A stretch of DNA of 64,000 nt from Plumapathes pennacea. Taxonomy: Eukaryota; Cnidaria; Anthozoa; Antipatharia; Myriopathidae. The notes under the pieces were generated by a model. The model was not told the DNA's origin. It saw only the letters and a list, made by a program, of their open reading frames with translations, and did not search any database. The stretch is from contig OZ038472.1 of NCBI GenBank assembly GCA_964036295.1, positions 12,768,068 through 12,832,067 on the forward strand, in the 5' to 3' direction. The translations under genes and the position numbers were made by a program. Shown piece after piece: positions 24,101 to 27,136 of the stretch (the stretch's first letter is position 1; every line of letters starts with the position of its first letter).

Positions 24101-27100
24101 TATCAACATTTCTTAGTGTTATTGTAATTTTGCCAACCGTGAAACAAAAGATTCTTTGTTTTAACAGCCAATAGATCTCTGGTTGGCACATTAATAACAA
24201 TAGATGACGTCAGCGTGATCATCGCTATATCTTCTTCCTGAAAGGCTGGAAAAATCTGTATTTTGAGATTGGAAGTGAATAGGTTTTTTTAAGCCCTTGC
24301 CATTTTTATCTCTGGTAATTCCAGAGTGGGAAGTATATAGTATAATCTTCTCCTTTTTCCTATACTTGTTTTCAATCACTTCCGGCAAATAATTACTGCT
24401 ACTGGTACACTGACATTGTTGTACTTATAGCTATCACCACTACAGCTACTAATGGAAGCATTTCCCCCTAAATATCACTGAGTCTTTCATCCAAGTTCTA
24501 CTGTTAGCTACTGTGTTGTTTGATTTAGTCTTTGTAAGTTTTCCTTTTTTCATCTACAAAAACTACAAAGCTAACTCGGTTTTTGTCTCTTTCACTGGCC
24601 AGATTTCTTCCAACTTTAGAGGGTCTCTTTTGGTTGGTCATAGGAGTGCTGGATATGGATGCATACGATACAAGCTCATCAGAATACATAGCCGTACAAA
24701 CTACCGGGAAAATCATGATAGCTACGTATACCATCCTGTCGATACTTGTGGCTATGAACATGCTGATTGCCCTGATGACCAGGACTTGTGAAAGAATACA
24801 AGTATGTCGATAATGTTCTTAGGATTCGACTTTCATGAAAAAACAAGACCAAAGCAACTGCAGTGACAAAAGCCAAAGTAAATCACCAATCCCGGCAACA
24901 GTGCGAGAAAATGCGAGAAAACGGATTTGTTTTGTTTCTGATTGACCAAAACTGGCATAGCAAACACGAATAGTATGGGCACTTGTCATATGAAAAACGC
25001 TCTGTGATAGCCAAAGAAATTACCTCTATAAACTAAATTAACAGAACATTATAAATTCGTTTTTAGGCAAATCAGGAGACTGAATGGGCGTTTGCCAGGA
25101 CCCAGATGTGGCTTGAATATCTGGACGACAGAGGAACAGTTTTGCCACCGCCACTAAATGTCTTAGAATTGCCGAGAATCGTCTACCAACTGTATCGTCT
25201 TTTCTGGTCCTGTTGTGAAAGCTGTTACACGGTGAGAAATGGATCGAGCTTTAGGGTTAAAAGCAAGAGTATATCTGACTAAGCTCTTCAGCACTTTGTT
25301 TTTGTTGACGCTTGTCGAGAAGATCTACTCGAACCAGACATGGAGCTTTTAAATGATTTTATAGGAAGTGATCTCAATAAAGTGAAGGCAAAAGAAAAAA
25401 CGTACGGACAAAGTTTCTGAATAAAACTTTATTTCGATTCTACTTATACCATATTGTTCGGTTACATGTGAAAAGCCGAAGCCAAAGGCTTATATGGCGA
25501 GGGTCAGTGGAAATACAAGATGTCTTTCTTGTTTAAGTTGAGAAGTTGGACTAGCTAGATAATAATAATATAACAATGATGGTAACATTTAGTTTGTAGT
25601 ATGTTAGTAGTAACCATTCACCAAGTAACATTTAGGGTAGATAATAGTAATATAATAATAAGATAAAAAGTAATAAGGTCATATTAATGACATACTAGTA
25701 ATAGCACAGTAGCTAGATAATAATCTTAATAATAATAATATAATAATATTTCAGAGTAGTTAGTTATTAGTGATAGAGAGTGTTGGTGGTTTCTATCAAG
25801 CAGTAATGCGACCGCATACTGCCTTTTTGACTTCAAAAATAAAAAAGAAGAACATTCAAATTAGTCTAGATACCACTTTTTGATTGTCTAATTTTAATTT
25901 TAGCGAAGTAACCGAAATTTGTTTTTGGTAGGTTTGATAAAGCTTTGTATATGGCCGCCATGTTGGTGTTCCACGTCGGGACACCATGGCGTTAAATATG
26001 TATCCAAGGTCGTTTGAATATACTGTATTATGCATACAAGTCACAAACACCCGTACAAGTGAGAATTCGGTCTCTCTGACGAATCTCCCATTGGTCAAGC
26101 ACTCGTATATAAACCGCTCCCTGCCATCCGACTGTTTCTTCTCAGAGACGGGACGGACATCGTCGGATGCAAGATTCAAGTGATAACCAAGAGATGCGCC
26201 TGGCTCAAAATGACGCGGTGGCACAAGACGGTCCACAGGACCAAGCTAAACAACCAGACCCCGAGGTGTGTATTATTTTTTGCCAATTGTTCATCTAGCT
26301 TTTGCCCGACAAGTATCGCGTCGCTATTCCCACGATCACCTTTCCCAGACTCGTGAATATGTTTTAATTGCCTTTATCAGGAGTGAGATTTGCAACAACT
26401 CGTAATATGTTCTTTTCCCACATAAATAATAATAATAATAATAATAATAATAATAATAATAATAATAATAATAATAATAATAATAATAATAATAATAATA
26501 ATAATAATAATAATAATAATAATAATAATAATAATAATAATAATAATTCAAGATTCCTATGAACTAAATAATCTCTTTTCCTATAACTAGAGGCAGGTCA
26601 TAATGCCAAAGCTTATAGTACGCTATCTGAAGAAAAAACTGAATTCAGAGTCGCGTAGAGAAGGGGACCAAGCGACCGAACTCAGCAAATTGCGAAAAGA
26701 TATGGATCACAAATTCGAGATGACACGTCATATATTGGAGAAAAGTACGCGGGACCAAGCGACCAAACTCAGCGGATTGCGAAAAGATATGGAACACAGG
26801 TTTGAGGAGATGACGCGTCATATATTGGAGAAAAGTACGCGGGACCAAGCGACCGAACTCAGCACATTGCGAAAAGATATGGATCACAAGTTCGAGGAGA
26901 TGAAGCGTATATTGGAGGAAATTAAGCAAAACATGGGCCAGAGCACACATGCGTCCGAGATAGAAGAGCCAAAAGAACCGGCTCAACGTCAAAGGAGCTG
27001 CCCTGTGGGCCAAAACACACATACGTCCGAGATAGAAGAGTCAAAAGACGAAGAAGCTGCTTTTGAGACGGATGACGTAGCATCCGTACATTTGAAAGCT

Positions 27101-27136
27101 GTAGAATCAGAGCCTTCGGATGACTGTCGAAAATAA
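18180..27136 (+). CDS. TRPC-like cation channel A
   Basis: Exons are 18180-18857, 22667-23096, 23352-23835, 24603-24801, 25067-25231 and 26591-27136, in phase, about 833 aa. Residues 1-105 resemble the ankyrin-like start of TRPC channels (DVDNRCKNELGKTVLVLVAE, QSLRLAIDKKY). Residues 115-225 correspond to the TRP_2 linker (NPYAMSLKWL, LEQFAIDLVEECNE). Next come a pre-S1 hydrophobic stretch at 270-303, S1 at 334-355, S2 at 371-392, S3 at 411-438, basic S4 at 457-476 and S5 at 491-517. The pore has the LFW motif (TLEGLFWLVIG, 535-545), S6 is 562-590, and the TRP box EWAFARTQMW is at 603-612, followed by LPPPLN. The last exon gives LIVRYLKKKL and a heptad coiled coil, as in TRPC C-termini. These channels sit in the plasma membrane as tetramers passing cations, usually downstream of phospholipase C. 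The start has a good context (aaacATGG) and is conserved in all copies. Splicing from 25231 to 26591 is inferred. If exon 5 is not spliced, the frame stops at 25282. Confidence 0.85.
19010..20965 (-). pseudogene. Penelope-like reverse transcriptase relic in intron 1 of TRPC-A
   Basis: Read on the minus strand, the region gives fragments in order: ALETYLDITKNELAEVTF, ILTKADKGTTTVVLDTSAKI, NKLHSNGCIDK, YTLTKIRKPTPVGRPI, LLQPIAKKQES, and later KKGFIKGEALRL. The ADKG..TVV and TKI-KPTPVGRP motifs fit the N-terminal and finger region of Penelope-like element reverse transcriptases. There are many stops and shifts, so it is dead. Related relics lie at 32400-34045 and 58200-58990, in the same intron and orientation of genes B and D. 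Confidence 0.7.
20966..22050. repeat. Remainder of intron 1 shared by TRPC-A, B and D
   Basis: Non-coding sequence, with the blocks near 21080-21600 copied at 34180-34720 and partly at 59010-59160. A minus-strand frame of about 77 codons (21196-21429) also appears in B at 34256-34534 but has no known domain. I see no gene. Confidence 0.45.
22065..22432. mobile_element. Poly-C/G-ended MITE in intron 1 of TRPC-A
   Basis: The left end has a C-run (22075-22094), then ccggggggagaag and ctcccatataagaaaggacg. The right end reads cgtcatttttatgtgggagt followed by cccccccggga. The inner parts of the two ends are inverted copies. The flanks on both sides carry gtga, and gene B shows a single gtga at the same place with no element (about 35227). 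D has the element at 59667-60023. Confidence 0.65.
23836..24602. other. Intron 3 of TRPC-A with degenerate interspersed repeat
   Basis: Starts with gtaattatat and ends ttcactggccag. It contains gattctccttacaacctctc followed by gccagagatatt, a motif of an abundant degenerate repeat also seen at 35762-35956, 37970 and 51240. The intron is almost identical in gene B (37814-38598). Confidence 0.6.
25232..25425 (+). terminator. Alternative 3' end of TRPC-A after the TRP-box exon
   Basis: If the donor at 25232 is not used, translation continues for 16 codons (VRNGSSFRVKSKSISD) and stops at 25280-25282. Two AATAAA signals follow at 25377 and 25420. Gene B has the same stop and signals (AATAAA at about 39307 and 39350). 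A transcript ending here would code for the channel without its C-terminal coiled coil. The donor and the signals are visible; their use is inference. Confidence 0.5.
25426..25944. other. Spacer between channel body and internal promoter of TRPC-A
   Basis: AT-rich sequence with many short taataataa tracts (25555-25760) and no coding frame. Gene B is nearly identical up to about 39683, where a 1.5-kb insertion begins. Confidence 0.5.
25945..26166 (+). promoter_or_regulatory. Internal promoter of TRPC-A (CCAAT and TATA boxes)
   Basis: In order: tatggccgccatgttggtg (a YY1-like GCCGCCAT site, 25950), a well-conserved block with ttgaatatactgtattatgc, an inverted CCAAT box in cccattggtcaagc (attgg at 26090-26094), and a TATA box tatataaa at 26106-26113. 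The ATG follows 54 bp after the TATA box, leaving room for a start site near 26140. The block is conserved in B (41690-41903) and D (63655-63839) and absent in C. Confidence 0.6.
26167..27136 (+). CDS. Short coiled-coil protein from internal promoter, TRPC-A copy
   Basis: Proposed exons are 26167-26265 and 26591-27136, giving about 214 aa. Exon 1 (33 codons) is acidic and Gln-rich, begins MQDSSDNQEM and ends in the DQAKQPDPE motif with a gtgtgt donor. It joins in phase 0 to the channel's C-terminal exon, which holds LIVRYLKKKL, three copies of a 30-aa coiled-coil unit, two Cys-containing repeat units and an acidic tail ending SEPSDDCRK. There is no membrane segment. In A and B an in-frame reading would also be open back to a possible acceptor (ttctcag at 26139-26145), so the exon could alternatively be an internal exon of the channel. 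In D a TAG sits directly before the ATG, which favours a true first exon. Function is unknown; a free TRPC-tail coiled coil could bind channel tetramers (inference). Confidence 0.5.
26424..26547. repeat. (AAT)n microsatellite
   Basis: About 41 AAT units in the intron between the short first exon and the coiled-coil exon. The matching intron of B holds a longer AAT/ATG compound tract; C has none. Confidence 0.95.
26666..26932 (+). repeat. 90-bp in-frame repeat expanding the coiled coil of TRPC-A
   Basis: Three copies of a unit reading RDQATELSTLRKDMDHKFEE and then MTRHILEKST. The second and third begin exactly 90 bp apart (26753, 26843). The first lacks one Glu codon (87 bp). B has one copy and C a diverged one. 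The heptad pattern of Leu/Met/Ile persists, so the repeat lengthens the coil. Confidence 0.85.

Follow-up and report, generated by a model that had tools for sequence, protein, structure and literature searches.

Introduction

In TRPC3, the loop between the TRP helix and the horizontal helix is thought to couple the tail of the channel to its gate; removing 28 or 6 residues from this loop is reported to raise activity, and adding 4 or 8 residues to lower it (PMC10526463). Reported structures of TRPC6 place the rib helix and the coiled coil against the ankyrin domain (PMC7082128). Two further reports concern the origin of exons and of channel C-termini: the MIR/AluSp exon of primate BLOC1S2, for which an intronic repeat gives the splice sites (PMC6822395), and CCAT, a C-terminus of the channel gene CACNA1C made from an internal promoter (PMC3628902). 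Here, we analyze a stretch of 64,000 nucleotides from Plumapathes pennacea (contig OZ038472.1, positions 12,768,068 to 12,832,067), taken from a 290-Mb, 24-contig genome and called the window below. It carries four tandem TRPC-type genes, A to D, on the plus strand, the last of which extends beyond the window end. Between the TRP-box exon and the coiled-coil exon of A, B, and D lies a promoter-like block, and this block is the 5' half of a low-copy dispersed repeat of roughly 300-350 bp. On balance, we consider it probable that the repeat landed in a TRPC intron and was spread by tandem duplication, and that its edge is now exonised as a linker in A and B. A preliminary description of the locus had proposed that an embedded promoter has apparently split the gene in two, so that one ancestral TRPC has turned into, or may be expressed as, a channel lacking its coiled coil and a separate soluble coiled-coil protein that could tune assembly in trans.

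Results

The promoter-like block is half of a dispersed repeat

Our models of these genes are partial. At the gene ends, the order is TRP-box exon, one or more linker exons, and coiled-coil exon, with phase-0 introns between them; this was computed for A to D and read by eye for E and F, two further relatives on the opposite strand outside the window. An inverted CCAAT (ATTGG), TATATAAA, and an ATG exon stand between the TRP-box and coiled-coil exons of A, B, and D, and C has a linker exon instead. The features of the three genes are:

26001-26145, plus strand: repeat 5' half in A, with the inverted CCAAT at 26090-26094 and TATATAAA at 26106-26113, ending at CTCAG
26146-26265, plus strand: 40-codon candidate linker exon of A in phase 0; its part from the ATG at 26167 is the 33-codon first exon of the preliminary description
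26424-26547, plus strand: TAA-repeat run in A, limits by eye
41738-41882, plus strand: repeat 5' half in B, with ATTGG at 41827-41831 and TATATAAA at 41843-41850
41883-41975, plus strand: candidate phase-0 linker exon of B, 31 codons, with the ATG at 41904
63667-63813, plus strand: repeat 5' half in D, with ATTGG at 63757-63761 and TATATAAA at 63773-63780
63840-63911, plus strand: ATG exon of D, 24 codons, preceded by an in-frame TAG

A 32-base stretch holding both signals was found three times in the window at up to three mismatches, against a mean of 0.00 in 100 shuffles. The ATG exons (26167-26265 in A, 41904-41975 in B, and 63840-63911 in D) all have an open frame, reach a phase-0 end at GTGTGT, and are in frame with the coiled-coil exon; each could splice to the channel's own C-terminal exon. 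The preliminary description had listed the block, the splicing frame, and the TAG just ahead of the ATG in D, and all three were recovered here; it had missed that the block is repetitive.

When the segment 25990-26270 was searched against the coral's own genome, it matched the three array copies and six places outside. Four of these six outside matches share the CTCAG end of the array copies, whereas one stops 10 and one 34 bases earlier. A second query, taken around the end of one outside copy, added four more places, three of them matched chiefly by their 3' half, which brings the places outside the array to 10. A 24-base core, at no more than three mismatches, occurs 10 times (three in the array and seven outside) and its reversed control not at all. 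All copy counts are lower bounds. From these matches and core counts, the block is therefore the 5' half of a dispersed repeat, and the exon edge lies within this repeat, as in an exonised repeat.

One outside locus (L030) holds a partial unit followed by a whole one, and by eye the unit seems to span TATTCAAAG to ATATAGTAC. Neither TG..CA ends nor terminal inverted repeats were seen in it by eye, and none of the three classes considered, long terminal repeat element, miniature inverted-repeat transposable element, or short interspersed element, fits on such inspection. Rfam gave no family at the gathering score in the window; across nine loci with repeat copies, it gave three matches, all below the gathering score and taken as chance. 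Beside the 10 outside places, some open frames look GPCR-like by eye (L017 and L020). At L017:1332-1660, a repeat copy stands head to head with one such GPCR-like intronless frame, at 1679-2587 (by eye).

The repeat edge in A and B resembles a 3' splice site

The initiator consensus is YYANWYY, which TCACTTC fits. This heptamer is found in five of the seven outside cores, where its A lies 30-32 bp downstream from the first T at the TATA position, and is missing from two. The array copies read TTTCTTC (A and B) and TCGCTTC (D) at that position, so none of the three is initiator-like. In A and B, there is a pyrimidine run followed by CTCAG. This form, TTTCTTCTCAG (26135-26145 in A), could act as a 3' splice site, a point that the preliminary description had missed. 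Read from CTCAG, the exon is open, has phase 0 on both sides, and is in frame with both neighbours (120 nt in A and 93 nt in B).

To score the site, we used a model built from 25 acceptors that belong to related genes in this array. The A/B acceptor scored 1.64; the 25 array acceptors, each left out in turn, ranged from -2.5 to 15.5 with a median of 7.2. Among the 3097 AGs at 14000-66000, a background that includes a few real acceptors, the A/B site falls within the top 2.9%. D scored -0.73 at the same site.

C carries an empty site for the insertion in D

Positions 52519-52596 of C align with 63551-63625 of D, and C from 52609-52610 aligns with D from 64220 and again from 64366. D therefore carries an insertion at 63626-64219, for which C represents the empty site:

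63626-64000 in the window, plus strand: insertion in D relative to C, 594 bp, running on to 64219 beyond the window end (C/D comparison)
52597-52609, plus strand: empty site in C for the 594-bp insertion of D (C/D comparison)

Within the insertion lie the repeat 5' half (63667-63813) and the ATG exon, as well as another 5' part that has decayed (64067-64157) and a tail (64172-64206). D 63814-64066, between the repeat parts, has one 18-base inverted match to the repeat and is otherwise unexplained. Because repeat copies exist elsewhere, a loss in C is less likely than a gain in D. The AATAATA tail of the repeat may be the source from which the TAA run in A and B expanded.

Over 300 bp (24883-25182 and 38813-39112), A and B do not differ at all. 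Their identity is 99% at the intron start, 96% in the repeat half, and 84% in the exon that follows, a pattern that looks like a recent conversion tract stopping before the block. The B intron has about 1.5 kb extra (39680-41370), in which the stretch from the ATG at 39934 looks rich in Q, K, R, and E codons, and inverted repeats near 41360-41650 (both by eye).

C, D, E, and F keep short linker exons

The linker of C had been reported correctly in the preliminary description, together with the lack of the block in this gene:

52688-52726, plus strand: linker exon of C, 13 codons, EDTEAGKPDHKKT

E and F have a 17-codon linker, a short phase-0 exon at the same place as in C (by eye). D has two 11-codon linker exons of its own past the window end, at 64302-64334 and 64447-64479 in extended coordinates, which had been missed. 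The D linker exon is tandemly duplicated together with its acceptor and donor (L007:4302-4479). The C linker region gave no match in the A and B introns.

Conservation of the exon

Between A and B, identity is 96% in the repeat half, 84% in the exon from CTCAG, and 87% in the intron behind. The corresponding values are 89, 62, and 83% for A and D, and 91, 62, and 72% for B and D, where the limits of the D exon and repeat half are off by one base. The ATG frame is open in all three genes, and its lengths of 99, 72, and 72 nt differ by multiples of three. For the A/B ATG exon, dS is 0.29 and dN 0.19, which on 72 aligned bases decides nothing. An open frame at such identities would fit a hydrophilic linker under loose constraint just as well as the start of a short protein.

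Stop codon and poly(A) signals behind the TRP-box exon

A stop codon and two AATAAA signals do follow the TRP-box exon in A and B, as the preliminary description had noted in favour of a split. Compared with 500 first-order Markov simulations per gene, AATAAA was observed three times in A (1.35 expected, P = 0.16), four times in B (2.46 expected, P = 0.26), once in C (0.94 expected), and not at all in D (0.56 expected). These counts are at chance level, and we rejected the signals as evidence for a split. As the first 200 bases of the intron after the TRP-box exon are 99% identical between A and B, the signals of the two genes amount to about one observation. When the coral's own genome was searched at the DNA level for a retrocopied or free-standing coiled-coil or ATG exon, the best candidates listed were array copies only.

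TRPC identity and further exons of the array

The TRP-box exon of A, with an EWKFAR-like TRP box and helix, matched TRPC channels among the solved structures, best TRPC1 (E = 5.4e-8); the sole non-TRP name among its PDB matches is PRMT6, at E = 0.24 or worse. The ion-transport exon of A likewise matched TRPC structures best, and all 33 PDB sequences at E <= 0.01 to the ion-transport domain are named TRPC or TRP-gamma. Pfam Ion_trans was above the cut-off for the exon at 23351-23836 and below it for the one at 24604-24801. A Pfam test for ankyrin repeats in one N-terminal exon (18180-18926) gave only a TRPM2-like match below threshold. No PDB match was found for the first 50 residues of the coiled-coil exon, the start of which we assign tentatively from its position and our own reading. 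The exons on either side of the block are:

25067-25231, plus strand: TRP-box exon of A with a phase-0 end (open frames, PDB match)
26591-27136, plus strand: coiled-coil C-terminal exon of A with its stop (open frame)
38997-39161, plus strand: TRP-box exon of B, with the same sequence as in A
42440-43444, plus strand: C-terminal exon of B, holding a 72-bp tandem repeat
52048-52230, plus strand: TRP-box exon of C
52947-53396, plus strand: C-terminal exon of C, its frame open as far as it was read (53396 or beyond)
62986-63219, plus strand: TRP-box exon of D, which exceeds its counterpart in A by 23 codons

When the exons are joined, A is open to its stop and C as far as it was read. The frame of B stops at 43444 and that of D ends after KRE, both short of the stretch matching the end of A. 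In the D tail exon, the stop is followed by an insert starting GTGTTACACTGGTCG (L007:4990-5290), and the D tail is thus much shorter than those of A and B. In the C-terminal exon of B, a 72-bp (24-codon) unit is repeated in tandem about 10 times at 42604-43410; two units of the same family are present in C and one in A. The coiled coil of A (26660-26920) is itself a repeat of about 30 codons (DQATELS.LRKDM...), as seen by eye.

Discussion

The repeat and its copies, the insertion in D, the frames, and the base differences are observed directly in the DNA. The following course of events would account for them. A low-copy repeat with a Pol II-type promoter would have entered a TRPC paralogue, in the intron that separates the TRP-box exon from the linker and coiled-coil exons, and would have reached A, B, and D through tandem duplication; C presents the empty site. 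Later, A and B would have lost the ancestral linker exon, and the repeat edge in these two genes would have become a 3' splice site, TCACTTCTCAG being changed to TTTCTTCTCAG if the direction of change is read correctly. The sequence behind this site is predicted to be spliced in as a hydrophilic linker of 40 or 31 codons. The longer loop between the TRP helix and the rib (horizontal) helix may shift gating between the paralogues; compared with the 13 codons in C, the linkers of A and B would lower coupling. In D, the inserted exon is probably skipped or serves as a first exon, and the two 11-codon linkers would serve the channel.

Several observations weigh against an exonised linker. The A/B acceptor is modest and lies in the lower part of the known range. 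Scoring covered four of the seven outside cores, and because these copies score -4.04 to 0.66, the splice site was partly there by descent. Exon skipping in A would also preserve the frame. The ATG is kept in all three array copies, and so are TATATAAA and ATTGG, which are less well kept outside; exonisation has no need of any of these. In the seven codons before the ATG, A and B differ by three changes, all of them nonsynonymous. When D is read from CTCAG, it is stopped by the TAG just before the ATG, and the alternative acceptor at this TAG is poor (-8.65). Because the CTCAG reading hits the TAG, the D exon can only be a first exon, be joined through the weak TAG acceptor, or be skipped.

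The strongest rival, which we regard as unlikely, is that the repeat drives a short transcript of the ATG exon and the coiled-coil exon. In addition to the full channel, the gene would then give a soluble rib-helix/coiled-coil protein that could compete in tetramer assembly. The D exon, which cannot serve as an internal exon from CTCAG, would be explained in this way, as would an ATG and an open phase-0 frame in three of three copies despite the lower A-D identity in the exon than in the repeat half. By eye, TATATAAA is exact in three of the seven outside cores, ATTGG in four, and both together in two, whereas both are kept in all three array copies. This better keeping speaks for a kept promoter function, but A and B are close relatives and the three copies count for less than three independent cases. 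The initiator-like motif of the outside cores would favour a promoter, but it is absent in A and B and changed in D. CCAT is a precedent for a channel C-terminus made from an internal promoter (PMC3628902), yet the DNA searches of the genome revealed no retrocopy or solo gene among the best candidates listed. D is a possible, and the best, candidate for an internal promoter making a soluble coiled-coil protein. A mixed arrangement is quite unlikely in our estimate: the promoter would be active in one or more paralogues, most plausibly D, the tandem genes would make full channels as well as free rib-helix/coiled-coil proteins, the latter would enter or block the tetramers of neighbours, and A and B would already have turned the promoter into a splice site. 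If a live promoter were present, the cluster would be a channel family whose assembly is tuned by a mobile promoter.

It is equally doubtful that the block is inert, neither promoter nor exon, with the TRP-box exons of A and B splicing straight to the coiled-coil exon and D using its two linkers. As the TRP-box and coiled-coil exons of A are both in phase 0, skipping keeps the frame, and in all three pairs the exon from CTCAG is less alike than the intron behind it. An inert block, however, would not be expected to keep ATG frames that differ by multiples of three with no stop gained, nor would a direct splice be expected where C, D, E, and F all have a linker exon.

A true split in the strict form, with intronic polyadenylation terminating the A/B channel behind the TRP-box exon and a gene of its own for the tail, is highly improbable: the stop 16 codons into the intron and the two AATAAA would fit it, but the signals are at chance level and nearly identical in the non-independent A and B, reading through most introns soon meets a stop, and the joined exons are open. 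The claim that the gene has become split is not supported, in view also of the linker exons kept in C and D, of the array-only occurrence of the coiled-coil and ATG exons among the best candidates of the DNA searches, and of the A/B edge itself, where a pyrimidine run and AG have replaced the initiator-like motif and the exon is in frame with both neighbours. What stands of the embedded promoter is the promoter-like block with its initiator-like motif in most outside cores; expression as an alternative transcript is possible, foremost in D.

With an exonised linker in A and B as the preferred reading, one cluster would present a natural series, from an empty site (C) through an inserted promoter-bearing repeat (D) to an edge altered towards an acceptor (A and B, where the older linker was not found). 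If confirmed by RNA, it would show the start-site region of a promoter turning into a splice site, in paralogues whose linkers range from 11 to 40 codons, at a loop on which the activity of TRPC3 is known to depend. Searches confined to one literature library gave no published case of this kind by title.

The described systems share single elements with this locus. As in the report on BLOC1S2, an intronic repeat would give splice sites for a new exon; unlike in that case, the candidate acceptor lies at the former start-site region of a promoter-bearing repeat, the setting is one of tandem paralogues with an empty-site relative, and splicing is predicted (PMC6822395). CCAT resembles the D candidate in that a channel C-terminus comes from an internal promoter, but its promoter is exonic and was reported from RNA and protein work, whereas here the putative promoter is intronic and repeat-derived (PMC3628902). 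A further likeness is to the exon 9 variants TRPC3b and TRPC3c, in which the loop between the TRP helix and the horizontal helix is likewise changed at the level of an exon; those variants arise by alternative splicing of one gene, whereas here the linker exons differ among tandem paralogues and one set of them is borne by an insertion (PMC10526463).

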